Shown here piece after piece: positions 2,042 to 22,955 of a stretch of 64,000 nt of DNA. The stretch spans positions 57,910 through 121,909 of the forward strand of contig JAJQCE010000024.1 in the NCBI GenBank assembly GCA_021202895.1, written 5' to 3'. The stretch comes from Ruminococcus sp. Its GTDB lineage: Bacteria; Bacillota; Clostridia; Oscillospirales; Ruminococcaceae. Under the pieces are notes generated by a model, which was not told the DNA's origin, ran no database searches, and saw only the letters and a program-made list of their open reading frames with translations. Within the stretch, counting starts at the first letter, position 1; every line of letters starts with the position of its first letter. Both the position numbers and the translations under genes were made by a program.

Positions 2042-4189
2042 ATGAAACAAAAGCTTTTGAAAAATTACTTCGGATATGAAGCCTTCAGAGATGGTCAGGA
2101 AAAAATAATAGATGAAATACTCTCAGGCAGAGATGTTCTCGCCATTATGCCTACAGGCGCAGGAAAATCGGTTTGCTACCAGCTTCCTGCGCTTATGCTT
2201 GATGGAATAACTGTTGTAATTTCACCGCTTATCTCTCTTATGAAGGATCAGGTAAATTCGCTGATTCAGTCAGGCATAAGCTGCGCCTACATAAATAGCT
2301 CGCTTAATCCCAGCCAGCTGGGAATTGTGATGGAAAGAGCAAGAAACAATCAGTATAAAATCATCTATATAGCCCCCGAAAGACTAATGACGCCCTCCTT
2401 TATCAGCTTTGCTGAAAATGCGAAAATCAGCATGATTTCAGTTGACGAGGCGCACTGCGTTTCTCAGTGGGGACAGGATTTTCGCCCGTCCTATGTAAGC
2501 ATACGCGAGTTTGCGGCTTCTCTCCCCTTCCGCCCGATTATCTCCGCATTCACCGCCACCGCCACAGACGCTGTGAAAAAAGATATAGTAAAAATGCTTG
2601 CGCTTAATAATCCCTATACCGTAACCACAGGCTTCGACAGAAAGAATCTTTACTTTAGCGTTTGCGAGCCTGACAATAAGCTTTTAAAAACCAGACAGCT
2701 TGTCGAGCAATCAAAAAATTCATCAGGTATAATTTATTGCAGCACAAGAAAAAATACAGAAGCAGTGTACGACTATTTAAATTCTGTAGGAATCCCCTGC
2801 TTAAAATACCACGCAGGACTTTCCGATGACGAGCGCAGACGCAATCAGGAGGATTTTATCTGCGACAGAGTTAAGGTTATGGCGGCAACTAACGCTTTCG
2901 GTATGGGAATTGATAAATCAAACGTCAGCTTTGTAATTCATTATAATATGCCAAAGGATATAGAAAGCTACTATCAGGAGGCAGGCAGAGCAGGTCGCGA
3001 CGGCTCTGAAGCACTCTGTACACTGCTCTTTTCAAGACAGGATATCCGCACAAACAGATTTTTAATTGATAAAACAGCAGAGGACTCACAGCTTGACCCC
3101 ACTCTTGCCGAAGCTCTTCGTCAGCGTGATTATATGCGCCTTAACGAGATGGTTAAATACTGCACAACTACAGATTGCCTGCGACACTTTATTTTAAGCT
3201 ATTTTGGTGAAAAATCAAACGACTACTGTGGCAAATGCTCCTCCTGCGAAAACGGCTGTGTAACCGAGGACGTAACAATAGCATCTCAGAAAATTCTCTC
3301 CTGCATCTTTAGACTTAAACAGCGAAATCTTAAATTCGGAGAAACGATGGTTACAGATATTCTCTGCGGCTCTAAAAATAAAAAGCTCCTTGATATGAGC
3401 CTTGACAGTCTAAGCACCTATGCAATTATAACAGATGTTAAACGAGAAAAAATCCGCCAGATTATTCAGGGACTTTGCGGCAGAGGCTATATCAGAAAGG
3501 ACGAGCATGACGCTCTTGTGTTGACTGCCTCCGCAAAAGAAGTGCTTATAGACGGCAAAAACGTGACGATGAGCTTTAAAAAGAAGAGCGAAACAAAGCC
3601 TAAGGTTATTAAAAAAGCATCGGGAAGATATGAGGAAAACGAGGAGCTTTTCGAGCTTTTAAAGCAGCTTCGACTTTCAATCGCTCAAAAAGCAAGGGTT
3701 CCCGCTTACATAATTTTTCCCGATTCCTCTCTCCACGATATGTGCCGTAAGCTTCCTAAAACTCTTGACGAATTTTCAGATGTTTCAGGAGTAGGACAAA
3801 ATAAGCTTCAACGCTACGGCAAGGATTTTGTCAGGGTGATTAACGACTTTGCAGCTAAAACAGATAAAAATCCAGAGCACAGCAATACCAATTCCCCTGA
3901 ACAGCTCTCCTCTAAAAGAATAATAAAGCCCCTCACCCTTGAACAGCTTTCTCAGAAAAAAGCCGATGAACTCGGCTCGAACGCACAGGATGAAAGAGAA
4001 AAAATTCTGAATTTCCTTTCAAAGCAAGGCTTTGTTGCCTTAGATAATTCAAACCTCACAGTAACAGCTCTGGGCGGCACAAACGGAATACATCTCTCAA
4101 CAACATTTTCAGACGATGAACTCGTTACAGAAATCGTACTGAAAAAAAACGTCCAGCTTTTGATTGAAAAACAATTGTACAATTCCTAA
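2042..4189 (+). CDS. recQ: ATP-dependent DNA helicase RecQ
   Basis: MPTGAGKSVCYQLPA (Walker A), DEAHCVSQWGQDFRPSY, QEAGRAGRDG, zinc-binding cysteines, HRDC-like C-terminus. Confidence 0.95.
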   Translation: MKQKLLKNYFGYEAFRDGQEKIIDEILSGRDVLAIMPTGAGKSVCYQLPALMLDGITVVISPLISLMKDQVNSLIQSGISCAYINSSLNPSQLGIVMERARNNQYKIIYIAPERLMTPSFISFAENAKISMISVDEAHCVSQWGQDFRPSYVSIREFAASLPFRPIISAFTATATDAVKKDIVKMLALNNPYTVTTGFDRKNLYFSVCEPDNKLLKTRQLVEQSKNSSGIIYCSTRKNTEAVYDYLNSVGIPCLKYHAGLSDDERRRNQEDFICDRVKVMAATNAFGMGIDKSNVSFVIHYNMPKDIESYYQEAGRAGRDGSEALCTLLFSRQDIRTNRFLIDKTAEDSQLDPTLAEALRQRDYMRLNEMVKYCTTTDCLRHFILSYFGEKSNDYCGKCSSCENGCVTEDVTIASQKILSCIFRLKQRNLKFGETMVTDILCGSKNKKLLDMSLDSLSTYAIITDVKREKIRQIIQGLCGRGYIRKDEHDALVLTASAKEVLIDGKNVTMSFKKKSETKPKVIKKASGRYEENEELFELLKQLRLSIAQKARVPAYIIFPDSSLHDMCRKLPKTLDEFSDVSGVGQNKLQRYGKDFVRVINDFAAKTDKNPEHSNTNSPEQLSSKRIIKPLTLEQLSQKKADELGSNAQDEREKILNFLSKQGFVALDNSNLTVTALGGTNGIHLSTTFSDDELVTEIVLKKNVQLLIEKQLYNS

Positions 4190-4349: not shown

Positions 4350-4439
4350 AAGTGCGAAAAAAGCCTAATTATGAAGGGGGTCGAAAATAAAGTGAGCGAA
4401 ATTTACCAATTCCAAAAGGAAAAACAGGAGGTTAAAAAA

Positions 4440-4490
4440 ATGAAAAATAAGTACGAAATCTTCGCCTATAAGTATTCCGAGTGTGGGAAC
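4440..4490 (+). pseudogene. Truncated duplicate of the first 17 codons of the small terminase gene
   Basis: MKNKYEIFAYKYSECGN is encoded here and at 4599-4649; the copies differ only at six synonymous third positions; reading diverges after GGGAAC. Confidence 0.8.
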
Positions 4491-4598
4491 TGGGCTTGCT
4501 CAAAATTTCGCTCATGCTTTTCTTTATCATAGCAAGCCCTATAAATTTGCACTTCGTGCAAATTTCCAAAATTCAGCACAATGCAGAAAGGATAAAAA

Positions 4599-5042
4599 AT
4601 GAAAAATAAGTACGAAATTTTTGCCTATAAATATTCTGAATGTGGTAACATTTATGAGGCTGCTAAAGCGGCTGATATTTCACCGCTTGACGCAGTTGCA
4701 ATGATGATTAATGCCAAGGTATTTAAAAAGGCAAAGGAATTTAAGCAAAGCAGAATAAGCTGTCCTGCGTCAGAGGGTCTGAGGCGGATAGCTTTCGGAA
4801 GAAATAACGACGCTGTAAAGCTTGCGTTTTCTGAGGAGGTCACTCCGCAGATGATTGAAAATTTAGATTTGTACGGAGTAAGTGAAATCAAATGCGGCAA
4901 GGGAGTGGTTGAAATTAAATTTTTCGACAGGCAAAAGGCGCTTGACGCACTTTACCTTGCGGAAAGCGAACAGGCAAATGAAAACAGTGCGGAGAATCTA
5001 ATAACTGCCATCTACGGCAAACGAGAGGATGATATGCCTTGA
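4599..5042 (+). CDS. Phage terminase small subunit-like
   Basis: HTH-like N-terminus; overlaps start of terL. Confidence 0.65.
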   Translation: MKNKYEIFAYKYSECGNIYEAAKAADISPLDAVAMMINAKVFKKAKEFKQSRISCPASEGLRRIAFGRNNDAVKLAFSEEVTPQMIENLDLYGVSEIKCGKGVVEIKFFDRQKALDALYLAESEQANENSAENLITAIYGKREDDMP

Positions 5043-6283
5043 AGCTAAAGATGCTTTCAGATAAACAGAAAAAAATTTTCACATGGTGGAAAAATAAAGA
5101 GCCCTGCGAATTTGACGGTATAATCTGCGATGGCGCAGTCAGATCCGGAAAAACAACCTGTATGTCATATTCCTTTGTCGTATGGTCAATGCTCAGCTTT
5201 AATCATTCAAATTTTGCGATATGCGGAAAAACAATAAGCTCTGTAAAAAGAAATTTTCTCGAACCGCTGATCGCTTTTTCAAGGGAAATCGGATTTAACG
5301 TTGAGCAAAAGGCTTCAAAAAACTACATTGAAATTTCCTCTGCAAAATACCGCAACAGATACTATATTTTCGGTGGCAAGGACGAGGGCTCTGCGGCAAT
5401 AATTCAAGGCATGACGCTAAGCGGAGTGCTGTTTGATGAAACTGCGCTGATGCCTAGAAGCTTTGTCGAGCAGGCAGTTGCCAGATGCTCTGTGCCGGGT
5501 TCAAAGCTGTGGTTTAACTGCAATCCAGAAAGCAGCTCACATTGGTTCAAACGGGAATGGATAGACAAGTGCAAAGAAAAGCGGCTTTACCATCTTCACT
5601 TTACACTTGACGATAATCCTGCTCTTTCCAAAAAAATCAAGGATCGCTACAAAAGACTTTACAGCGGAGCTTTCTACGAAAGATTTATTCTGGGAAAATG
5701 GTGCGATGTGACAGGTCTTATCTACCCCATGTTCAAGGAAAAGCTTCATGTTGCAAGACTGCTTCCCGAAAGCTTTGAAAGGTATATAGTAAGCTGTGAC
5801 TACGGCACTGTAAACCCATCAAGCTTCGGACTGTGGGGACTTTCAAACGGAATATGGTATCGTATCAGCGAATACTATTACGATTCTAAAAAAGAAGGTA
5901 TGCAGCGAACGGACGAAGAACACTATGCAGCTTTAGAACGGCTTTGCGGCGACAGAAAAATTGAAAAGATAATTTGCGACCCTTCAGCCGCTTCCTTTAT
6001 CACCTGTATTCGCCGTCACGGAAAATTTGCGGTAACGCCTGCTAAAAATGATGTTCTCAGCGGAATAAGGCGTGTCGGCGATATGCTAAGCTCAGGCAAA
6101 ATAAAAATTTCCTCCGCCTGCACCGACTGTATTCGTGAATTTTCCCTTTACCGCTGGGACGACTCGGCGGCGGCAGATCGCCCACTTAAGGAAAACGACC
6201 ACGCAATGGACGATCTGCGTTACTTTGTAAGCGACATATATAAAGGCGACGACTGCTTTTTTGTAATGTCGCTGGAACGATAA
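5039..6283 (+). CDS. Phage terminase large subunit (PBSX-type)
   Basis: ICDGAVRSGKTTCMSYSF (Walker A), GVLFDETALMPRSFVEQA (Walker B), nuclease-region SCDYGTVNPSSFGLWG. Confidence 0.92.
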   Translation: MKLKMLSDKQKKIFTWWKNKEPCEFDGIICDGAVRSGKTTCMSYSFVVWSMLSFNHSNFAICGKTISSVKRNFLEPLIAFSREIGFNVEQKASKNYIEISSAKYRNRYYIFGGKDEGSAAIIQGMTLSGVLFDETALMPRSFVEQAVARCSVPGSKLWFNCNPESSSHWFKREWIDKCKEKRLYHLHFTLDDNPALSKKIKDRYKRLYSGAFYERFILGKWCDVTGLIYPMFKEKLHVARLLPESFERYIVSCDYGTVNPSSFGLWGLSNGIWYRISEYYYDSKKEGMQRTDEEHYAALERLCGDRKIEKIICDPSAASFITCIRRHGKFAVTPAKNDVLSGIRRVGDMLSSGKIKISSACTDCIREFSLYRWDDSAAADRPLKENDHAMDDLRYFVSDIYKGDDCFFVMSLER

Positions 6284-6312
6284 TTTAATACACTGGGAGG
6301 TGTGTCTTTTAG

Positions 6313-7464
6313 TTGAAAAGGAAAAATAATAAGCAAAAAACAGTTTTTAGTGAAATCAGCGCATCCGCTCCACAGCAGGGAGGCTTCAGGCTTGCGCCTC
6401 ATCCGCTGACCTTTGAGGAGGGGTTATACGAGGAGCTTCGTGCAAAGGTACCGATTATCGATGCGGCTATTTCAAAAATAGTCAGACTAACCTGCGGCTT
6501 TAAATTAAGCTGTGACGACAAATCAACCGAGCAGAGAATAAACGACTTCTTTGCGACCTTACCTGTATGCGTATCGGGAAGCTCTCTTGAAACCTTCAGC
6601 GAAATCTACCTCGATTCACTGCTGACCTACGGCAGAGCGTTCGGAGAAATTCTCGTGAGCAGCCGCACACATTCGCTGTCAGGACTTTACTGCGCAGACT
6701 GTACGCTTTACAATGTGCGTCCTACGGAAAATGAGCAGGGCTATGAAATTTACAGTATCCTGACCAGAGAAAGGCTTAGCACTGCTCACCCTGAGCGGCT
6801 GCTCTACACAGCGCAAAATCCCACGCCAAAAAATCCAAGCGGCGTATCTCTGCTGAGAGGACTTCCAGCACTAAGCTCAGTGCTTATGCGGATTTACGAG
6901 GCTGTCGGACAAAACTTTGACCGTGCGGGAAATGTGCGCTATGCCGTAACCTACAAGCCGTCAACGGAAAATGACTCGGCTTTTGCAAAGCAAAGAGCAG
7001 TTGAAATAGCCGAGCAATGGTCTGACGGCATGGCGGCATCAAAGGCAGGCTGCATTAAGGATTTTGTCGCTGTGGGAGATGTTGATATTAAGGTTATCGG
7101 CGCTGATGGAATCATGCTCGACACGGAAATTCCGGTTCGCCAGATTTTAGAACAGCTTATAGCAAAGCTTTCTATTCCACCCTTCCTTCTGGGACTGAAC
7201 TGGTCTACAACCGAGCGCATGAGCAGTCAGCAGGCTGATATACTGACAAGCGAAATCGACTACTACCGCAGGCTTCTCACTCAGGCTATAATGAAAATAG
7301 TCAGATTCTACTGCGCCACAGAGGGCATAAACAAAAGAGTCAGCGTTGAGTGGGACAATGTAAATTTGCAGGACGAGGAATCGCTTGCGCTTGCGGCTTT
7401 GTACCGTGCGCAGACAGCACAGCTTGAACAAAATCTGAAAGGAGTAAACAGCTATGGAAACTAA
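6313..7464 (+). CDS. Phage portal protein
   Basis: Position after terL; portal-like motifs including QILEQLIAKLSIPPFLLGLNWSTTERMSSQQADILTSEI; TTG start. Confidence 0.85.
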   Translation: MKRKNNKQKTVFSEISASAPQQGGFRLAPHPLTFEEGLYEELRAKVPIIDAAISKIVRLTCGFKLSCDDKSTEQRINDFFATLPVCVSGSSLETFSEIYLDSLLTYGRAFGEILVSSRTHSLSGLYCADCTLYNVRPTENEQGYEIYSILTRERLSTAHPERLLYTAQNPTPKNPSGVSLLRGLPALSSVLMRIYEAVGQNFDRAGNVRYAVTYKPSTENDSAFAKQRAVEIAEQWSDGMAASKAGCIKDFVAVGDVDIKVIGADGIMLDTEIPVRQILEQLIAKLSIPPFLLGLNWSTTERMSSQQADILTSEIDYYRRLLTQAIMKIVRFYCATEGINKRVSVEWDNVNLQDEESLALAALYRAQTAQLEQNLKGVNSYGN

Positions 7465-8365
7465 TGAAAACAATGAATTATCGAATGAGCTTGAGCTTAT
7501 CAACAAGCTTTCAAGACGTAAGCTTAACGAGGACGAGGTGTATATCTTTTCGGTAATTCTCTGCGACAACGAAACGGACAGAGATAACGAGAGATTTTCA
7601 ATAGCCTCTCTCAGGAAGCTTGCAGAGCTTTTTGTCGGCAAGACGGGAATTTTTGACCACGACCCAAAGGGAGCAAATCAAACTGCGAGAATTTTCTCAA
7701 CGCAGCTGCTTCAAGAGCCCGAAAAACGCACGCATTCAGGTGAGGTTTACACCTATCTGAAAGCTAAAGCCTACATGATGAGAACCGACAAAAATTCCGA
7801 CTTTATCAAGGAAATTGACGGCGGAATCAAAAAGGAGGTAAGCGTATGCTGCTCGGTAAATCACGAAATTTGCAGCATATGCGGCGAGGACAAAAAAAGC
7901 TCATCCTGCTCTCACATCAAAGGCGAATACTACAGCGGAAAGCTTTGCGAGGGTATTTTAGACGGCGTTACAGACGCATACGAATGGTCCTTTGTCGCAA
8001 TTCCTGCGCAGCCAAATGCCGGAGTAACAAAGTCATTGACAAGTATAAGCGATGGAAAAGTAAGCGAAAGCAATGAGAATTTGACAAAATCGCTTGAGAG
8101 AAGGCTTGAAAAAAGCAAGGCTGACATATCAAAAGCCAAGGACGATATTTTAACGGAGATTATCCGACTGGGACAATTTTGCGTACCTGCATTTAATCCC
8201 GAAACAACAAGAGCGTTATGCGCTAATATGGATATTGATCAGCTTCTTAGCTTTAAAGAGCAAACAAGAAAACAGGTAAAGGTGCAAACGCCTAAAAGCA
8301 CACTTGCGGCAAGTGAAAATTATGCCGCTAAAAACTTGAAATTTAAAATGAAAAAAGGAGAATGA
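7454..8365 (+). CDS. Putative prohead protease/scaffold fusion
   Basis: Between portal and capsid; GKTGIFDHDPKG and GVTDAYEWSFVAIPAQPNAGVTKSL followed by a charged scaffold-like tail. Confidence 0.6.
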   Translation: METNENNELSNELELINKLSRRKLNEDEVYIFSVILCDNETDRDNERFSIASLRKLAELFVGKTGIFDHDPKGANQTARIFSTQLLQEPEKRTHSGEVYTYLKAKAYMMRTDKNSDFIKEIDGGIKKEVSVCCSVNHEICSICGEDKKSSSCSHIKGEYYSGKLCEGILDGVTDAYEWSFVAIPAQPNAGVTKSLTSISDGKVSESNENLTKSLERRLEKSKADISKAKDDILTEIIRLGQFCVPAFNPETTRALCANMDIDQLLSFKEQTRKQVKVQTPKSTLAASENYAAKNLKFKMKKGE

Positions 8366-8371
8366 TTATTT

Positions 8372-9340
8372 ATGTACACAGATGTAAAACTTGAAAAGGG
8401 ACTATATTCAATCACGTCAAAGAGCTTCACACAGGCACTTGCGGAGCTTGATCCTGACAGTGACTACAAGGGAACAGAGCTTGAGGGCTTAGACGCATTT
8501 GAGCGTCAGCTAAAGAGATTCGACATTAAGGTTGCGGGAAACTGCTGCGACAGAGTGGAAAAGTTTTTCCTCTCCACTGATTCAGCCGTGCTTTTTCCTG
8601 AGTACGTTCGCCGTCAGATAAAGGAAGGAATGGACTCGGTTTCAATTCTACCCGACATCACAGCGGCTCAAACCTACACCGATTCAATTGATTTTCGTGC
8701 TTTAACAATGACCGCAGATGGTGAAGAAGCTGACATAGATCAGTTGGCGACTCTTCCTGAAACTACAGTTACACTTGCTTCCTCATCTTCAGCTCTTACA
8801 AAGTTCGGAAGACAGCTTGCCTGCTCATACGAGTCAATCCGCAAGCAGCGTCTTGAAGCATTTGGAGTAATACTTCGCACCTTGGGCGCACAGATTTCCC
8901 GTGCTATAAATTCAAAATGTATCGAAGTGTTATCTGACGCCGCTGAAGCTTCAACATATTCATCCGATATAACCTATGCGGATCTTGCTTCCTTCTGGGC
9001 GGCAATGGACGAATACGACATGGACGTCATGCTTGCTTCACCTGAAATGATGGCTAAGATTTTAGCACTTGACGAGATGAAGTACTGCGTCACAGACTTT
9101 ATGTCAGGCGGCAAGGTAGTTACTCCATATGGTGTAACTATTGTCAAGTGTTCTGCACTTGATTCGGATACTGCAATTGGAATAGACAGTAAATGCGCCG
9201 CTGAGGTTATCTATGGAACCGATGTTATCGTTGACAGCGACAAGCTCATTTCAACACAGTCAGACAACATTGCAGCTTCAATCATGTGCGGCTTTGCGGT
9301 ACTGACAAGCGATGCAGTAAAAAAGCTTCAGCTGGCATAA
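8372..9340 (+). CDS. Putative HK97-fold major capsid protein
   Basis: Position after protease; domain pattern of phage capsid proteins. Confidence 0.75.
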   Translation: MYTDVKLEKGLYSITSKSFTQALAELDPDSDYKGTELEGLDAFERQLKRFDIKVAGNCCDRVEKFFLSTDSAVLFPEYVRRQIKEGMDSVSILPDITAAQTYTDSIDFRALTMTADGEEADIDQLATLPETTVTLASSSSALTKFGRQLACSYESIRKQRLEAFGVILRTLGAQISRAINSKCIEVLSDAAEASTYSSDITYADLASFWAAMDEYDMDVMLASPEMMAKILALDEMKYCVTDFMSGGKVVTPYGVTIVKCSALDSDTAIGIDSKCAAEVIYGTDVIVDSDKLISTQSDNIAASIMCGFAVLTSDAVKKLQLA

Positions 9341-9390
9341 GTAAAAACTTAATTATCTTTATAAAAAATCCAATCCAAAAATTTAAAACA

Positions 9391-9413
9391 GGGGCGGTTC
9401 GCCGTCCCTTTTT
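9391..9413 (+). terminator. Intrinsic terminator immediately after capsid gene
   Basis: GGGGCGG-TTCG-CCGTCCC (one G-U) followed by TTTTT. Confidence 0.7.
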
Positions 9414-9440
9414 CTATAAAAATATGAAAGGAGAATACCT

Positions 9441-9821
9441 TTGCAATATTTAAGCTTTGACAATGTTAAAGAAATATTTTTAAGAACAACGGGTGTAAGC
9501 GAGGATGATTTTGAACACTCTCAGCTGCTGGAAAATGCAGAGGACTTTGTACTTTCTCATCTGAGCGTTTCTTATGATGAGCTGACCAGCGTACAAGTGA
9601 GCCTTTGTGAATATGCTGCGGCAGCGGTTGCAGTGTACGACTATTCATTTGAGCTTTACCTTAGACAGCAGGCAGTCATGAGTGAAAGCGGGGAGGTCAC
9701 GCTGACAAGAGCGGACAAATACCAGCTTGAAGCATCTGGAAGAATGAGAAGCAATGCGCTTAAGCAGCTTTACTGTGCGGAAATTGCAGAGCCGAAGGAC
9801 TTTGCGTTTATTAAAATTTGA
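9441..9821 (+). CDS. Putative head-tail connector protein
   Basis: 126-aa ORF at connector position downstream of capsid. Confidence 0.5.
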   Translation: MQYLSFDNVKEIFLRTTGVSEDDFEHSQLLENAEDFVLSHLSVSYDELTSVQVSLCEYAAAAVAVYDYSFELYLRQQAVMSESGEVTLTRADKYQLEASGRMRSNALKQLYCAEIAEPKDFAFIKI

Positions 9822-9835
9822 AAGGAGCAAATTGA

Positions 9836-10255
9836 ATGTTGATAAGTCAGACAGTGACGGATTACATAAGTGAAAGACTGACTGAAGCAGGCTTTAGTCC
9901 ATGTAAAATTTACGAAGCAGATTTAGGATTAAAGACAAATGGGGCGATGAGTGCGGAGTATCCTGCGCTCATTACAGTAAACAAGGTTTCCCTCAACCAA
10001 TATTCTAAAGCAGCTTCAGATTTATGCCGTGCGGAGGTTTCTTTGAACGTTCAATGCTTTGGAAGCAAAAAAGGATTTTACGATGCAGATGCTTTGCAGG
10101 AGATGACGGAAACCGCTCTTAGTGAAATTTTATTTAATTCAGAGATGATAATCTCAAAATTAAGCTGTTCTCAGATAAAGAAAAACATCAAATATGGCAG
10201 GCTTGAGCAGGATTTTGACACCATATTAATTACATCAATTGAACAGGAGGAATAG
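9836..10255 (+). CDS. Putative neck/tail-terminator-like phage protein
   Basis: Size and position only; ends with TAG. Confidence 0.4.
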   Translation: MLISQTVTDYISERLTEAGFSPCKIYEADLGLKTNGAMSAEYPALITVNKVSLNQYSKAASDLCRAEVSLNVQCFGSKKGFYDADALQEMTETALSEILFNSEMIISKLSCSQIKKNIKYGRLEQDFDTILITSIEQEE

Positions 10256-10257
10256 GA

Positions 10258-10611
10258 ATGAATTCTACAGGTGTTATAAACTCTGTTATATATAATGGAA
10301 GTGTCTACTACTTTGAAACGCTGAAATTTACAATTGCAAACAAGGTAGAGGACTCAGCTCTTATTGACGGAGATCTTTACAGAATAAAGGCCGCAAGTGC
10401 AAGCGAGATAATTTATCTCAAGACTAGAATATCTCACAGTAAAATATTTACATACAGAGCACTTTTAAAATCGCTTGCCCAAAACGTTTCAAGCATAAGA
10501 ATTAACGCAACCTTATTTTCAAACCTAACTCTTATGACGGGGAAAATCAGTTCTCCTGAATCTGAGGAATTTGCTACTTGTGAAATTACTCTTACGGAGG
10601 TAGAAGCATGA
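10258..10611 (+). CDS. Small phage structural protein, unknown
   Basis: ORF tightly packed in the cassette; overlaps the next start. Confidence 0.4.
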   Translation: MNSTGVINSVIYNGSVYYFETLKFTIANKVEDSALIDGDLYRIKAASASEIIYLKTRISHSKIFTYRALLKSLAQNVSSIRINATLFSNLTLMTGKISSPESEEFATCEITLTEVEA

Positions 10612-11534
10612 ACAATTTCACTCTTACAATTACAACTTCGGACGGAGATATAACTCTGACTCAAGGTGTAAGCTTCACCTTTGAAAAGGAGCGATACACG
10701 GGATACACTAAATTCAGCGGAACCTTTATAGGAAGCTGTGAGCCGTCAGACATTTTATACATCAGCTTTTATTACCAAACGAAGCTTCTGCACTGCGGCT
10801 TTGCGGACAAGGTTTCATGCAGACAAACGAGCGGAAAAAATACGGTGACAATAAGCTCCTATGGATTTACAATGCTGTTAGGGCAAAATTTATCAGAGCC
10901 TGGAATTTTATCCTCGCCTAATCTTGACACTTTGCTTGACACGGATTTAGACTTTTATGGGATAACGCACCAAAGCAGCACTTCTGCTGTAAACTACCTT
11001 TACATCAACGACAACACTACAATATGGGATTCTATCTGCAACTATACGCTCAAAGCTTACGATAGCTTCCCTGTTGTAATAGGCGCAAACAAAGTTGTAT
11101 GCAAGGCTTCGGGAAATACCGCTTACAGCTACGATACGGAAAAGATTGTATACACTGAAAGCGGAGTGCATCTAACAAATTTGATTTCCAAAGCCTACAC
11201 AAACGACAGCGATGGAGACTGGAGCTACGAACTGGAAAACTCCTATGCCGCAGAGAGAAACATCATAAAGCAAAAATACTATCAGCAGGACAAGGAATTT
11301 TTATACAACCTAAACGTTCAGCTAGAACAAAAGATTCAGTATGCAGACAAAGGCAGAGAATACGCAAAATATAAATACGTGGGATACAAAGGCGAAGATT
11401 TACTTGACACAGTTACTTTAAGCAATGGAAACATAAACCTTTCCTCCGCAGAAGTTGATTATATCAAAATAGACGGCTCTAAAAAGGGAATATTTACAAC
11501 AATTTCCTGCTACTTTGATTCATACTGCAATTAA
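10608..11534 (+). CDS. Putative baseplate hub/late-control-D-like protein
   Basis: 308 aa; TIWDSICNYTLKAYDSFPVV resembles hub proteins; last gene of cassette. Confidence 0.5.
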   Translation: MNNFTLTITTSDGDITLTQGVSFTFEKERYTGYTKFSGTFIGSCEPSDILYISFYYQTKLLHCGFADKVSCRQTSGKNTVTISSYGFTMLLGQNLSEPGILSSPNLDTLLDTDLDFYGITHQSSTSAVNYLYINDNTTIWDSICNYTLKAYDSFPVVIGANKVVCKASGNTAYSYDTEKIVYTESGVHLTNLISKAYTNDSDGDWSYELENSYAAERNIIKQKYYQQDKEFLYNLNVQLEQKIQYADKGREYAKYKYVGYKGEDLLDTVTLSNGNINLSSAEVDYIKIDGSKKGIFTTISCYFDSYCN

Positions 11535-11541
11535 GAAAAAG

Positions 11542-11574
11542 GCGCACCTGTTAGATGCAGGTGCGCTGTTTTTT
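11542..11574 (+). terminator. Intrinsic terminator ending the phage cassette
   Basis: GCGCACCTG-TTAGATG-CAGGTGCGC then T-run. Confidence 0.85.
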
Positions 11575-11594: not shown

Positions 11595-12662
11595 TCAAAG
11601 CTTAACTATCCAGCCGAACTCGTCCTCAATTTTACCCCACTGGATACCTGTAAGCGTATCATAGAGCATCTGAGAAACCTTGCCAATTTTGTTGTCATTT
11701 ATAATCATAATCTTATCTCCCCATTTTAGATGACCTACAGGGGAAATAACTGCGGCTGTACCAGTTCCGAAAACCTCGTCAAGCTTGCCGTCGTCATAAG
11801 CCTTTGATACCTCTTCAATCGAGATTTTTCTCTCGGTAACCTTATATCCTTGTTTTCTGCAAATTTCAATAGCGGACTTTCTGGTAATTCCCGAAAGAAC
11901 AGAGCCTGTAAGCTGAGGAGTAACAACCTCTCCGTCAATTACAAAGAAGATGTTCATAGAGCCAACCTCTTCGATATACTTCTGCTCTACTCCGTCAAGC
12001 CACAGCACCTGCTCGTAATCCTGATTATGAGCCTCGTCCTGTCCCTTAAGAGAAATAGCGTAGTTTGCAGCGGTCTTTGCAAAGCCCGTTCCGCCTCTTA
12101 CCGTTCTGACATACTTCTGCTCCACATAAATCTTAACTGGATCAAGACCTGTCGAATAGTACGCGCCTGACGGCGAAAGGATAATCATAAACAGATAATG
12201 ATCCGCAGGACATACGCCTACATAATCATCTGTAGCGAAAATAAAGGGTCTTATGTAAAGCGATGCTCCGTCAGTATGAGGAACCCAGTCCTCCTCAAGC
12301 TTAACGAGAGTCTTGGTCGCCTCAACCATAAATTCCTCGTCAAAAGGAGGAATAACCATTCTCTCAGCAGAAATATTCATTCTCTTGAAATTTTCATCAG
12401 GTCTGAAAAGCTGAACTGTGCCGTCGGCTGTTCTATATGCCTTTAAGCCCTCGAAAATTTCCTGTCCATAATGCAGGCAACAAGTGGCGGGCGAAAGCGA
12501 AATATCTCCGAACGGAACTATTCTGGGGTCATGCCAGCCCTCTCCTGTGTCATAGTTCATAACAAACATATGGTCGGTAAAAATATGCCCAAAGCCAAGC
12601 TTGGTTTCATCCGCCGGCTTTTCCTTTGGCGTAGTGGTACGCTCGATTCTGATATCTAACAT
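11595..12662 (-). CDS. ilvE: Branched-chain amino acid aminotransferase
   Basis: FGHIFTDHMFVMNYDTGEGWHDPRIVPFG, YGQEIFEGLKAYR, EEVGSMNIFFV; likely start MLDIRIERTT (the supplied ORF begins 6 codons earlier). Confidence 0.93.
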   Translation of the reverse strand: MLDIRIERTTTPKEKPADETKLGFGHIFTDHMFVMNYDTGEGWHDPRIVPFGDISLSPATCCLHYGQEIFEGLKAYRTADGTVQLFRPDENFKRMNISAERMVIPPFDEEFMVEATKTLVKLEEDWVPHTDGASLYIRPFIFATDDYVGVCPADHYLFMIILSPSGAYYSTGLDPVKIYVEQKYVRTVRGGTGFAKTAANYAISLKGQDEAHNQDYEQVLWLDGVEQKYIEEVGSMNIFFVIDGEVVTPQLTGSVLSGITRKSAIEICRKQGYKVTERKISIEEVSKAYDDGKLDEVFGTGTAAVISPVGHLKWGDKIMIINDNKIGKVSQMLYDTLTGIQWGKIEDEFGWIVKL

Positions 12663-12899
12663 ACAAAATCCTTCTTTCAAAAAATTTAATCCTTACATCA
12701 CAAAAATTGTGAAAAGGATATTTATTATCAAAATAGCCCACTTTATATTATATACTAAAACCGAAAGATTTTCAATAGCGCAGGCGCATTATTCATAGAT
12801 TTTTGATAATTTATTATTCGATTTGACAAATTGTCGTAGGAAGCTTTGAAAAAGTTCTGTCTAAATCAATAGCGCAAAGAATTTTTCATACAAAAGAGA

Positions 12900-17084: not shown

Positions 17085-17831
17085 TTATTCTAAATATCCA
17101 ACTAAAATCGTTCTCGAATCGTTGCTGTCCCTTGTGCAGGTTGAAAGAACCACCAGATTTTCTTCGGTAAGCTCACTTGGTTCAAAGTCGGTTTTGCAGA
17201 TTGCAACATCTGAAAGCATCTCTAAATAGGTTTCTCTGTCAGATTTTGCAGGGTGAACCACGCTGTAAACAAATGCGTCGCTTTCCACAACTGCGCAGGC
17301 TATGAAGCTTATAGTCTTAATTTCATGCTCCAGCGTCAGCGTGCCAGTCGGGTGTTCGTTGAAGTAGGTCTGATTCTTGAAGTTCAGAAGTGGGGCGAAA
17401 ATGTACTTGTTCGAGTAGTTGTGACCGTAGATTATCGAGTTAAAATCGGTGAAATCGGAGCTGTTTCTATAGTCTAGAAACGGGCAGCCGTACACGCTGT
17501 AATCCCCCTCAAAGCTATGCTTAAGGTAATAGGAGTTATCCTCGCACTGCATTACGGGGAAGTCTATCGCTGTATCTGGAATGTTGAGCCATGCTACCAT
17601 CTGCGGATTTATCGCCTGAGCGTCGGCTAGAAGGTTGACTTCATCGCTTTCTTCACCGCTCGGCTTGACTGAAGAATAAATCTGAGTCTGCGCTTCGTAA
17701 TCCTCTGATGTATTGGTTTCGCTTGATTGACTGAAATAGTAATATGCCGTGCCGCCAATAATTATCAAAATTAACAAAATTATAATCACAGTCGCAATAC
17801 GGCGTTTGCGCTTGCCTTTAGTCTTCTTCAT
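17085..17831 (-). CDS. Class B-like sortase
   Basis: N-terminal TM; MVAWLNIPDTAIDFPVMQ, SIIYGHNY, VVLSTCT catalytic Cys motif. Confidence 0.88.
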   Translation of the reverse strand: MKKTKGKRKRRIATVIIILLILIIIGGTAYYYFSQSSETNTSEDYEAQTQIYSSVKPSGEESDEVNLLADAQAINPQMVAWLNIPDTAIDFPVMQCEDNSYYLKHSFEGDYSVYGCPFLDYRNSSDFTDFNSIIYGHNYSNKYIFAPLLNFKNQTYFNEHPTGTLTLEHEIKTISFIACAVVESDAFVYSVVHPAKSDRETYLEMLSDVAICKTDFEPSELTEENLVVLSTCTRDSNDSRTILVGYLE

Positions 17832-18636
17832 CGGTCACGTTTGCGTTATTATATGTATCCTGATAATCGTCAAAATATCCTGCGATTATGTCGCCATTTT
17901 CATCATCATCGCCAAAGCTTGTAATTTCTACCATTCCAGTCGGAACGCACTGAGCGGTGACTATTATGTTATAGTCGGTGTCGAAAATGCCGTCGTATTC
18001 AGCTTTCAGAACTGGGATTAAAATATAGTCGAACAAATTTTCGGTATTACCACCTGCGGCTAGAGCGGCTAGTTCAGCAGAATTTGAACCTGTATAGTAG
18101 AACCAACCTGTATAATCATATGTAACTGTGCTGTCTTCATCGTCTGTTACAGCATCGCTATCATCATCATCATAATAGTAGAACGCAGAATTTTGGCTCG
18201 ATACACCATCATCGCCAAACTCATAAAGCTGATATGAAGTTCCCTCATCATCTGTTGAAGTGGAATAAAAATATATCGCAGAAAGTATCGCTTTGCCTCT
18301 TGCCGAGTTGGTGATGTCTTCTCCGTTTTCGTCCGTTATCGTTATCTGCATACGGATATAGACTTCGGTGTCGGAATTGTTGAGGACGTATGGGTCTTTG
18401 GCTATCGTCATACCTGGCTCGCTCAGCTTGGCGTCAGATTTGCCGCTTGAGTACCAGCTCGGCTCTAAAAGTGAGATTTGGTACTCCTGCGCTTCAAGCT
18501 CGTTTGTTACGGTGTCTCTGCTGGTGAAAAATGCCAGTGTGATTCCTGCAATTAGGAGCGCAGCAAGCAGAACTATTATGCAGATTGTATAAGTTGTGCG
18601 CTTGCAGCTGAACAGCTCTTTAATTTTCGTACTCAT
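17818..18636 (-). CDS. TasA/camelysin-like protein with SipW-type signal
   Basis: ALLIAGITLAFFTSRDTVTNELEA signal region. Confidence 0.7.
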   Translation of the reverse strand: MSTKIKELFSCKRTTYTICIIVLLAALLIAGITLAFFTSRDTVTNELEAQEYQISLLEPSWYSSGKSDAKLSEPGMTIAKDPYVLNNSDTEVYIRMQITITDENGEDITNSARGKAILSAIYFYSTSTDDEGTSYQLYEFGDDGVSSQNSAFYYYDDDDSDAVTDDEDSTVTYDYTGWFYYTGSNSAELAALAAGGNTENLFDYILIPVLKAEYDGIFDTDYNIIVTAQCVPTGMVEITSFGDDDENGDIIAGYFDDYQDTYNNANVTDEED

Positions 18637-19165
18637 TGCGTTCCCTCCTTTTGCTTTTTATCCATCTGACAAGTGTGAAAGCTGCTCCTAAAAGCAGATA
18701 TGCCGCCAACAGGCAGATTATTACAACTATCACTCTGCGAACGGTTGTGCTATTGGTGTAAAATGCCAGAGAACCTATTTTTGGGATTCCGAAAACCACC
18801 TTGCCAAGGACGTTTTGATAGTCTGACGGGGTGGAATCGGCGGTGTTGTTCATGTCGCCTTTGGTGTAAATCTGCTCGTTTTCCGTGTCGTTTTCTACCA
18901 CTCTGTGAGTTACCACAGCATCGCCGCTTGTCACGAATGAAATCACATCGCCCTCGGCTAAATCCTCCGGTGCAGTGTTGTCAACTAAAACCAGTGTGCC
19001 AACGGGGTAAATATTTTTCATGCTCTGGGTTTTCACCACATAGAATCTGTAGCCGAAAGCGTACAGAGCAATCATTGCTATTCCTATAAAAGCCATCAGC
19101 GCAAATACTAACGACGTCAGAATGTGCGCTGCTTTTTTTACGTATGTAAGTTTGTTATGCGCCAT
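18620..19165 (-). CDS. SipW-type signal peptidase I (intact)
   Basis: VKTQSMKNIYPVGTLVLV (Ser), AVVTHRVVE (His), IYTKGDMNN. Confidence 0.88.
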   Translation of the reverse strand: MAHNKLTYVKKAAHILTSLVFALMAFIGIAMIALYAFGYRFYVVKTQSMKNIYPVGTLVLVDNTAPEDLAEGDVISFVTSGDAVVTHRVVENDTENEQIYTKGDMNNTADSTPSDYQNVLGKVVFGIPKIGSLAFYTNSTTVRRVIVVIICLLAAYLLLGAAFTLVRWIKSKRRERNEYEN

Positions 19166-19982
19166 TTAGCTCTCCGCCCTGAGTATCTTCGTTTTCACGG
19201 CTGTTACGTCTTTTTTTAATTAAAATGGCTATCAGGATAAAAATTATAAGTATTGCCAAAATCGCAATTACTGCGAAATATCCAATATTTCCGGAATCGA
19301 AAATTCCAGTGTTCGGAGGCGTGTATTCCTCGTCAACCGCCGCATAAAAAATCCACCGAAACCACACCTTGCCCTCGATATAGTTGTCGCCGCTTTCAGC
19401 TTCCAAAATTTCCACTCCATCAGAGCTTACAAGCCTTGTGCCATAATTCTTAAAATAGTCCGCTGTGTCGCCCGTCCATGTTATCGACACGCTAAGCGTC
19501 GCAGAATCGTTCGGCTCGTACAGACCTAAATCAATAGGTTCGTCCGCTAAATTCACAGTGCCGTCAGAGCTAAGTCCTGACACTGAGCCTGTAAAAACCT
19601 CCTCGCCGTCCAGGGTGAAAACTGCCGTGCAGCCGTCCTCAAGGTTAAAATCTCCGCTCCAGCCTATCGGCTCGGCATAGAAATAAATGTGATAAGCCTT
19701 GTCCTCTCGCAGGTTCATAATTTCAATATTTTTAGTGTACTCTGTGTCCGGCTGCATATTTTCCACATAGAAAAAATACTCGCCGTCCTCGCTCACTGCG
19801 TTGCCATCGCTGTCCATAACTGTCAGCTCTTCCAGAAGTCCCGCTGCCGTTCCATCGGGCAGTGTGACCTCCGCAGCCGCCGAAAGCGTGCTGCAAAGAA
19901 TCAGAGCGGCAGACAGAAATGCTGACAAAGTAAATTTGACTGCGCTTTTCATTAGCCGCTCTCCTTTCATAATTCTATGCAA
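19155..19982 (-). CDS. Surface protein with sortase-type C-terminal anchor
   Basis: Signal peptide; C-terminal PPNTG + hydrophobic segment + KKRR tail; directly upstream of the sipW/sortase genes. Confidence 0.72.
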   Translation of the reverse strand: MHRIMKGERLMKSAVKFTLSAFLSAALILCSTLSAAAEVTLPDGTAAGLLEELTVMDSDGNAVSEDGEYFFYVENMQPDTEYTKNIEIMNLREDKAYHIYFYAEPIGWSGDFNLEDGCTAVFTLDGEEVFTGSVSGLSSDGTVNLADEPIDLGLYEPNDSATLSVSITWTGDTADYFKNYGTRLVSSDGVEILEAESGDNYIEGKVWFRWIFYAAVDEEYTPPNTGIFDSGNIGYFAVIAILAILIIFILIAILIKKRRNSRENEDTQGGELNGA

Positions 19983-20024
19983 GACCTTTGTCCTGCCAAC
20001 GCCTTTATCTCTGCAAGCCGTTCC

Positions 20025-20045
20025 GACGCCGCCGCCTGCGGCGTC
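20025..20045 (-). promoter_or_regulatory. GC-rich intergenic hairpin inside the fibre operon
   Basis: GACGCCGC/GCGGCGTC 8-bp perfect stem, no T-tract on the coding strand. Confidence 0.5.
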
Positions 20046-20107
20046 ATCTCAGCTTTTATCTTGAAATTTTTTGATTTCGCTTGGGGTTAGTCTTATTCTG
20101 TTTCTGT

Positions 20108-21268
20108 TTAATCACCATTACCTGATGCGCTAGGATCAGACCAAGTTACTGTTGTTGTGGTGTTAGCCACTTTCGTTTCATCATCTGCATCTTTAACAAT
20201 GATTCCCTCTTCATTCACATAGACTTTATTATTATCATCAATCGATGCTTCATATCCCCATCCTAGAGCGTTTACAGCCTCTGTACTAACTTCGCCAACT
20301 CCGTTTTCTCCAACGTTTTCTGTAACAGCCTGTGCACTAGCAAGAGCTACATTCAGATCATAAGTAAATGAAGTATAAGCTTCAGCAGTAACGTCATCAT
20401 CAAGCTCCATAGCTTTTACAAGCAGCTCAGATGTTTCACCTGCGCCAAGAACGTGGTTGTAGTAGAATGTCCACGTGTCAGTGTCATAAACCGCTGTCCA
20501 GTTATCTTTATAATCATCGTCAAGATAAATGTTAATTACGATGTCGTCAGCAGTTGAACTTGTATCAGTACCAGCATATGTAGCCGTGATGTACCAGCCT
20601 GTACTTGCATTACCTAAAATTGTAGAACTGAAAGTGATTGTAGCATTATCAACCGTTTTCTCAACAGCATAACTAGCTGTATATGTGCCTTCACTTTCAC
20701 TGATAGAGCTTACTTTGTAATAGATATTATCATCTGCATCATAATAATACCCTACATAAGTACCATCCGAACGCTCAAAAACATACAACCCTGTTGTTGA
20801 AGGTGTATAATCCTCAGAAGAAACAGTATTGTCAGTAATTGTTTCACCTGCCGCATAAACAAGCTGTCCGCCCGCCTGAAGCGAGGTTACCTCATCAGAA
20901 GTAAGCGTCACGTAAGTATCAGACCCATTTGCACTTGGAATATCTGTTGATGTACTTTCATACGTCAAGCTTAATGTATCCGTCAGTTCAACCTTAACAA
21001 ATGCCGCAACATTTCCTGTGTTTACTGCCGCAACTTCCTTTGTGATAGTCTGTCCCGGAGTCCACTGCTCGGGCGGTGTGAAATCTTCAGTAATTGATAC
21101 GCCGTAGCTGCTCGACGCACTAAGCTCGTTGACTACCGTGTCCTCTGATGTAAACCAAGCGAACGTGCCGCCGATTGCAATTAAAGCGGCGAGAATAACA
21201 GACGCCACCAACGCCCTTTTCTGCTTGGCATTTTTCTTTTTGTTCTGTGTAGTTGTTGTACTTGTCAT
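20108..21268 (-). CDS. TasA/camelysin-like exported protein
   Basis: ALIAIGGTFAWFTSEDTVVNELSASSSYGVSI SipW-cognate signal pattern. Confidence 0.78.
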   Translation of the reverse strand: MTSTTTTQNKKKNAKQKRALVASVILAALIAIGGTFAWFTSEDTVVNELSASSSYGVSITEDFTPPEQWTPGQTITKEVAAVNTGNVAAFVKVELTDTLSLTYESTSTDIPSANGSDTYVTLTSDEVTSLQAGGQLVYAAGETITDNTVSSEDYTPSTTGLYVFERSDGTYVGYYYDADDNIYYKVSSISESEGTYTASYAVEKTVDNATITFSSTILGNASTGWYITATYAGTDTSSTADDIVINIYLDDDYKDNWTAVYDTDTWTFYYNHVLGAGETSELLVKAMELDDDVTAEAYTSFTYDLNVALASAQAVTENVGENGVGEVSTEAVNALGWGYEASIDDNNKVYVNEEGIIVKDADDETKVANTTTTVTWSDPSASGNGD

Positions 21269-21322
21269 AATTCAAAACTCCTTTTTATAATATCTATATT
21301 TAAACGCCGAGAATGCGTTAAT

Positions 21323-21967
21323 TTACTTATTTTCAGACTGCTCCTCGACAGCCTTTTTTCCTTTATTCTCAGACGGTTCAAGATAAATCCTAAGCAGCCT
21401 AAAGAAGATAAATATCAAAACAATAATCGCAATTACAAAATACCATCTTAGCTGAACAAATTTGATTATGTAGCCCAGCTTCGGAATACTAAACGTAACC
21501 TTGCCGATAACCCTGCTCTCGTCAAGCAAAAAGCCGTCCTCGTCCTCGTTAGCGTCGCCCTTTGTTGTAAAGCAGGTAACGCCCGTGCCCTCGTAGTCGT
21601 CAAACTTCTACGTAACTCTATGCGTAAGATAAGTATCGTAATCGCTCGACGGATTAAAGGTAATAACATCGTCAACCTCAATCTCGTCCGCATCGCAAAC
21701 CCTTACGATAACCAAATCCCCCACCGAAAGCTCAGGCTCCATCGAGGGAGTAAGAACCGTGTAGTAACGGTAGCCGAAAATCGACTTGTCATTGCTCCTG
21801 TCAGCCGCAAATATCAAAGCCGCAATGATAATGCAAATCGCCAGCAAATAAATGAAGATATTTCTAAAAACCCTCAAGACAGCCAACCCGACAGCCTTAC
21901 CGCTGTGCGAATCACCCTCGACCGCCGTTTCCTTAACCTCATCACTCATCTCGGTAAAGCTCACCAC
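21323..21967 (-). pseudogene. SipW-type signal peptidase interrupted by one in-frame TAG
   Basis: Frame reads ...TPSMEPELSVGDLVIV...TYLTHRVT-TAG-KFDDYEGTGVTCFTTKGDANEDEDGFLLDESRVIGKVTFSIPKLG...; same frame on both sides of the stop at 21608-21610. Confidence 0.85.
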
Positions 21968-22010
21968 TTTCCTTTTGCTCCATTTTTATATCTGTATGTA
22001 AATCTTAGAG

Positions 22011-22955
22011 TTAGTCATCTTCGTCATCTGTGCCATCATCAGTGGTTTCCGTAGCCTCTTCCGTTGCCGCTGTAGCAGTTGTCGCTTGTACGAGCGAGCT
22101 GTTTTCATCAATTGAAACATTACTCCAACGAGCGTCAACCGCACCGCCCTCCGTCTGAATCGCATCGGTAAGCACATCAATTTGTAGTGTGATGCCATAT
22201 TCTTCAAGGATTGCATACGTGTCACTTGAAATTGTAACGCTTGCTAAAAGCTGCTCGGTAGTATCTCCCGCCTCAACGGCAGTCTTGTAATAAAAATACC
22301 CATCAGCCGAGTTGTAGAACCAGTATTCAGACCAGCCATCAGCTAAAGTAAAGGTAACATCGCCGTTGGTGAAAGAAGTCGCCGTGCCATCTGCAAGCGA
22401 ATCTGAATCAGTTACCGCTGTGAGCTCATCAAAAGATTCAAGCCCATATTCCGCAGCATCACCCGATTGAATATCAACGTCAATTTCACTTGTAGATGTT
22501 TGAGTTTCACTATTTTCATCTTCATATTCGCTTGTAGTTGTAAGCGTTGTCACATATCTGGGAACTAAAGCAACACGAACGTAGGATTTAACGTAATTGC
22601 TGTCAGCAGCGCTAGTTGTCGTAATCTCAACAGGCTTTGAAGCCGTATAAGATACAACCTCAGACCCGTTTTCATCAGACGAAGTGTCCTCCGACCAAGT
22701 TACGGTATTAGTTTTTTCCGTTATATCAGCATATGAAGATGAGTCAATTCCGCTCTCCGTTACCGCAACCTCAATCTCCGCAGGCGTGAAGCTGTTAGTC
22801 GCCGACTTATTAACTTTGGTGTCGCTGTTTGCAAAAACCGAAAGCACGCAGGCAACCGCAAACGCAAGCAGTGCAACAATTATAATCGGGACTCTATATT
22901 TTTTAAATGTGCTAGTATTTTCCAAATCAGCGCCGTCCTTTCTTTTCCAAATCAT
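22011..22955 (-). CDS. SipW-dependent exported protein, first gene of fibre locus
   Basis: Signal anchor with ACVLSVFANSDTKVNKSATNSFTPAEIEV; an alternative TTG start near 22925 has a better RBS (AAAGGA). Confidence 0.65.
   Translation of the reverse strand: MIWKRKDGADLENTSTFKKYRVPIIIVALLAFAVACVLSVFANSDTKVNKSATNSFTPAEIEVAVTESGIDSSSYADITEKTNTVTWSEDTSSDENGSEVVSYTASKPVEITTTSAADSNYVKSYVRVALVPRYVTTLTTTSEYEDENSETQTSTSEIDVDIQSGDAAEYGLESFDELTAVTDSDSLADGTATSFTNGDVTFTLADGWSEYWFYNSADGYFYYKTAVEAGDTTEQLLASVTISSDTYAILEEYGITLQIDVLTDAIQTEGGAVDARWSNVSIDENSSLVQATTATAATEEATETTDDGTDDEDD

Follow-up and report, generated by a model that had tools for sequence, protein, structure and literature searches.

The window, a 64,000-nucleotide stretch of DNA from Ruminococcus sp., contains a cassette of nine tightly packed plus-strand open reading frames (4599-11534, ~7 kb) with overlapping or short junctions, flanked by recQ upstream (2042-4189, plus strand) and ilvE convergently downstream (11595-12680, minus strand). 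All nine genes are intact in the order terS, terL, portal, XkdF-like protease, capsid, two neck proteins (g6 and g7), tail-tube-fold protein (g8), and hub (g9), in agreement with a previous sequence-only reading of the locus. As also stated there, integrase, tape measure, and lysis genes were lacking from the cassette, as were sheath and baseplate genes, and a whole-genome search of the window organism gave no match to Phage_holin_4 (PF05105). The cassette and its adjoining genes likewise contained no integrase, replication gene, regulator, or mobility module.

The small terminase subunit encoded by terS (4599-5042, 147 aa; Pfam Terminase_2, E = 1.6e-7) was present in 97 of 104 related loci and is followed by the large terminase TerL (5039-6283, 414 aa; Terminase_6N, E = 1e-19; Terminase_6C, E = 2.8e-5; phrog_2, E = 8.6e-54), with intact Walker A, Walker B, and three nuclease Asp motifs that were invariant in 98-100 of 100 homologues. 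The portal protein (6313-7464, 383 aa) matched phrog_30703 (E = 5.4e-158). The next product (7454-8365, 303 aa) matched the uncharacterized family phrog_16951 (E = 8.9e-112) and is identified by sequence comparison as an XkdF-like prohead serine protease, because its homologue in a Tepidibacter phage-plasmid is annotated as an XkdF-like serine protease (E = 2.8e-41) and its His69, Ser130, and Cys/His cluster show no variation; its C-terminal extension is probably a scaffold. The major capsid protein (8372-9340, 322 aa) was recognized by Phage_capsid_4 (E = 7.7e-19) and phrog_3922 (E = 3e-78), and PDB sequence searches with the capsid and the hub gave no match. In an R. flavefaciens-type group of loci (L088, L122, and L125-L140), the capsid gene lies before the protease gene, opposite to their arrangement in the window. 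The neck gene g6 (9441-9821, 126 aa) is head-tail connector/adaptor-like according to its position 3' of the capsid gene and an iterative profile detected in 89 of 104 related loci, while g7 (9836-10255, 139 aa) is neck or tail-terminator-like according to its position and a weak match to the phrog_176 tail terminator (E = 0.05).

The strong terminator proposed for the cassette end was located at 11541-11567 (plus strand; 11-pair stem, 7 GC), and a terminator lay directly 3' of g9 in 43 of 78 relatives compared to 13 of 297 control stretches (4%). A further terminator-like hairpin (9390-9409, plus strand; 8-pair stem and T run) lies in the gap between the capsid and neck genes, is resembled by a hairpin in six of 55 relatives, and is a possible attenuator that may set capsid over tail expression. 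At the 5' end, a 56-nt direct repeat on the plus strand (4435-4490 and 4594-4649; spacing 159 bp, 89% identity) duplicates the initial 17 codons of terS. The six differences all fall at third codon positions, and the truncated upstream copy terminates after an insert of about 105 bp that is rich in hairpins. The cassette start previously placed at 4440 thus falls in this truncated copy, terS itself starting at 4599. The duplicate was not found 5' of terS in the relatives examined and, from its sequence, looks as if an inserted element had replaced the start of the gene or as if recombination had taken place with a diverged terS. Elsewhere in the window (17818-22955), several secreted proteins have a TasA/camelysin-like appearance (signal peptide, AFF/AWF motif) and form one cluster near tRNA-Ser genes.

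Distribution, selection, and inheritance

The portal gene was single copy in 12 of 13 genomes of the genus, with 64-72% identity to the window portal among relatives. It was matched in 126 of 297 sampled Ruminococcaceae genomes (42%) and in 62 of 126 genera at about 42-72% identity, the identity dropping as kinship dropped, and it also occurred in other families of the order Oscillospirales. All five portal matches in a class-wide sample of 291 genomes fell within the order. Carriers include Ruminococcus albus 8 and KH2T6 and R. flavefaciens Y1 and ATCC 19208. The nine-gene architecture was common to 67 complete cassettes (6.6-8.3 kb) with core genes almost never truncated and no conserved extra phage gene adjoining. 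Their neighbors are assorted host genes (52 immediate upstream and 45 immediate downstream families); conservation between recQ and ilvE held for the cassette, which is widespread in relatives, but not for the site, which is common to the closest relatives only. Degeneration in relatives and full-length prophages at the same site, named beforehand as signs against domestication, were looked for among the relatives and neither was found. The cassette was absent from one 99%-complete congener and from over half of the family sample and is thus dispensable, and portal and TerL were not found in the related genome G024; many of the genomes behind these counts and the trees are MAGs, and absence is a soft result for those that are incomplete.

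Purifying selection acts on all nine genes, with median dN/dS values (Nei-Gojobori, close pairs) of 0.10-0.33, in accordance with the coding constraint that had been read from the major ORFs. The medians were 0.15 for terS, 0.105 for terL, 0.109 for portal, 0.16 for the protease, and 0.115 for the capsid, compared to 0.19 for g6, 0.26 for g7, 0.33 for g8, and 0.19 for g9, such that g7 and g8 evolve fastest. A chance deletion remnant of a prophage heading for loss, entertained by the sequence-only reading as a simple alternative, would explain the missing tail, lysis, and mobility genes, the absence from about half of the family, and the truncated terS-start repeat as some local damage. Such a remnant would decay independently in each lineage, accumulating pseudogenes under relaxed selection, and it can be given hardly any credence against intact lengths in the 67 complete cassettes and the same single-copy nine-gene set, its dN/dS well under 1, across dozens of genera. 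The view that this is not a decaying prophage was consequently upheld.

Congruence was evaluated in 26 genomes by comparing a TerL, portal, and MCP tree with an RpoB tree. The two had 17 of 23 splits in common (0.29 expected with shuffled labels), including 14 of the 15 strongly supported cassette splits, and their distances were correlated (Mantel r = 0.82; 0 of 999 permutations as high). Cassette dS was close to host-flank dS in most pairs with shared neighbors (0.32 vs. 0.37, 1.03 vs. 1.13, and 0.92 vs. 0.89), with the exception of the syntenic pair L113/L139 (one shared gene) in which cassette dS was well above host dS. Cassette GC also tracks flank GC (r = 0.955). Tree congruence, matching dS, and the GC correlation indicate that the cassette travelled with the chromosome, and a horizontally spreading prophage was ruled out by the first two. 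Single copy number, purifying selection, and co-inheritance with RpoB and flanking host genes, together with the lack of degeneration and of full-length prophages at the site, give strong support to the domestication that had been suggested. A phage satellite or helper-dependent capsid cassette, mobilized by or interfering with other phages, was a further suggestion of the sequence-only reading, and the compact gene content limited to capsid and packaging would suit it. This is very unlikely, as the integrase or regulatory module and mobility genes of the PICI/P4 type are missing in and beside the cassette together with any replication gene, inheritance follows the chromosome, and beyond chromosome-derived contigs the portal was found only in two distant elements, a Clostridia phage-plasmid (35.8%) and a Microcystis phage (28.7%).

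Portal-bearing IMG/VR contigs were considered as phages and rejected, since the three longest examined (L209, L218, and L172) are chromosome fragments with host flanks; they exemplify cassettes of this kind being catalogued as viruses. Five 'Bacteriophage sp.' records from human feces also contain the portal, the longest of which (MT835508.1, Mexico) is a piece of bacterial chromosome where rnf and ribosomal-protein operons surround a shortened cassette comprising terS to g6 and two small ORFs without a hub. VLPs of Mexican children were sequenced in a virome study (PMC8361208), and it is a guess that the records originate from it. They are weakly suggestive of encapsidated host DNA and also fit contamination.

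Predicted stub tail and long forms of the cassette

The products of g8 (10258-10611, 117 aa) and g9 (10608-11534, 308 aa) were not recognizable by sequence, and both gave confident AlphaFold models (pLDDT 92 and 93.7, respectively). The g8 model resembled tail-tube/Hcp/baseplate-initiator folds (phiCD508 baseplate, E = 1.7e-5; RcGTA tail protein 6tba, Z = 9.2), such that g8 is predicted to have a tail-tube/Hcp fold, the fold search settling the fold class only, and possibly forms a single ring. Profile alignment of g8 with the long-form tube, represented by two sequences only, gave no match. In view of this predicted fold, the earlier description of the cassette as tubeless is not fully accurate. 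The g9 model matched Mu gp44 (E = 2e-16), the MuSo2 tail protein (Z = 23.4), and T4 gp27 (Z = 16), and hhalign aligned g9 with long-form hubs (99.8%, E = 1e-27). By modeled fold and profile, g9 is a central hub of the Mu gp44/T4 gp27 type, in keeping with the hub-like last ORF noted before. These assignments suggest that, besides head and neck components, the cassette specifies one tube-fold protein and a hub.

Long forms of about 10-14 kb, which end in host genes, occur in sister families and in some further genera of the Ruminococcaceae. Long form L270 has the same front end plus a decoration protein, tube protein, LysM protein, hub, gp25, baseplate J, and tail protein I, and long form L279 also has a sheath. 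Short and long forms were separate groups in both the cassette and RpoB trees. The missing tail genes were also sought elsewhere, as had been recommended: baseplate J (phrog_6) was not detected in the whole genome of the window organism, in 12 of 12 congeners searched, or in nearly all other short-form genomes, the few exceptions to which may be prophages, and it was present in the long-form genomes searched, mostly adjoining the cassette. An intact contractile-tailed relative was identified in the 38.8-kb phage-plasmid of Tepidibacter hydrothermalis (NZ_CP120734.1), whose terS, portal, XkdF-like protease, capsid, and hub are homologous to those of the cassette and identically ordered. Unlike the cassette, it is an extrachromosomal circle with a tape measure, full contractile tail, baseplate, tail protein, holin, and endolysin, and its TerL had no match to the cassette TerL profile. 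The long forms and the phage-plasmid point to the ancestral gene order, and hence to a contractile-tailed phage domesticated in the order, of which the Ruminococcus clade lost the genes for sheath, tape measure, baseplate, and lysis and retained a capsid and stub tail.

Another, unlike compact head-tail cassette (L261; G027:C112, 251-11456; about 11 kb) has only a 244-aa tape-measure-like ORF. It was observed in a large Ruminococcaceae genus without the window-type portal and is possibly a second GTA-like lineage.

Proposed function as a GTA-like particle

PBSX of Bacillus subtilis (xkd genes) packages host DNA and has a full contractile tail and lysis genes. It resembles the cassette in the XkdF-like protease after the portal, the terminase-portal-protease-capsid order, and the gp44/XkdQ-type hub; it differs in that the sheath, tape measure, and baseplate wedge are absent from the cassette and phrog_6 from the genome. 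RcGTA (Rhodogtaviriformidae) is a longer, siphovirus-like cluster in Alphaproteobacteria, is by description set apart from the cassette by this length and type, and shares with it vertical inheritance, purifying selection, non-self-propagating head and packaging genes, and a tube-fold tail protein. The Faecalibacterium prausnitzii FpGTA forms 40-nm particles that look tailless and contain about 9 kb of host DNA, and it is encoded by operon I (terS, terL, portal, head scaffold, and capsid; 10.5 kb, ten ORFs) and operon II (baseplate, fiber, RBP, holin, and endolysin; PMC12946183). As judged by this published description, it is similar to the cassette in operon I content, lack of replication genes, and bacterial family (as placed in PMC12946183), in contrast to its larger operon I and its operon II versus nine genes in 7 kb and a genome without baseplate J or PF05105 holin.

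Of the features of a GTA, the cassette has a head and packaging cluster without replication or integration genes between host genes, genes kept by selection, and co-evolution with the host. From this anatomy and evolution, and the GTA-like packaging reported for Faecalibacterium and R. callidus (PMC12946183), which the pattern fits, the cassette, a domesticated and vertically inherited phage module, likely makes a small DNA-filled capsid, i.e., a GTA-like particle, and this is the best of the alternatives offered by the sequence-only reading. TerS and TerL would pump host DNA via the portal into the capsid, the XkdF-like protease would mature it, g6 and g7 would seal the neck, and g8 and g9 would build the stub tail. 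Since the cassette has no replicon of its own, the packaged DNA would have to be host DNA, supposedly short random pieces that would then be delivered, and release and receptor binding would rely on host genes outside the cassette. Arguments against a GTA-like particle are that the genome offers neither baseplate J nor PF05105 holin as candidates for receptor binding or lysis, that the window TerS keeps a Terminase_2 match while the FpGTA TerS is said to be without an obvious DNA-binding domain, that the cassette is dispensable, and the dS exception of L113/L139.

A domesticated particle with a non-transfer role, either PBSX-like or tailocin-like killing or packaging tied to cell death without gene delivery, is consistent with a contractile-tailed, XkdF-bearing ancestor and with PBSX packaging host DNA without injecting it (PMC12946183). 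This role is unlikely, as the short form lost the sheath and baseplate needed for contractile killing and the strongest constraint is on terminase, portal, and capsid. Such constraint on the packaging machinery, together with the shedding of tail parts, suggests that the selected function is most likely filling the capsid with DNA.

A more far-reaching version of the GTA-like proposal is possible although doubtful. The cassette would be the smallest GTA known (nine genes, 7 kb, with a tail of one tube ring and hub) and would have been present in the ancestor of a large clade of Ruminococcaceae. It would mark the last stage in the stepwise reduction of a contractile phage across the order, a reduction readable from living relatives, and would be the source of encapsidated R. 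callidus DNA and perhaps of DNA transfer in R. albus. VLPs contained chromosomal DNA of R. callidus in 4.6-kb pieces, for which no operon was named (PMC12946183), and a capsid sized for 4.6 kb could not hold the 7-kb cassette. In R. albus, DNA transfer by vesicle-like material is described in the account given by a review (Klieve et al., 2005, cited in PMC7105600). Linking this activity to the cassette that R. albus carries is speculation.

To our knowledge, GTAs are well documented in few lineages only, with the first report of one from the gut dating from 2026. Gut Ruminococcus and relatives probably make tiny virus-like particles carrying their own DNA, which, if true, would provide a fiber-degrading gut and rumen clade, cultured R. 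albus and R. flavefaciens among its members, with an inbuilt means of exchanging genes. Living relatives ranging from a full contractile-tailed phage through short-tailed to stub-tailed forms would make the phage-to-GTA transition directly testable, and the minimal form raises the question of how little tail suffices for DNA delivery.
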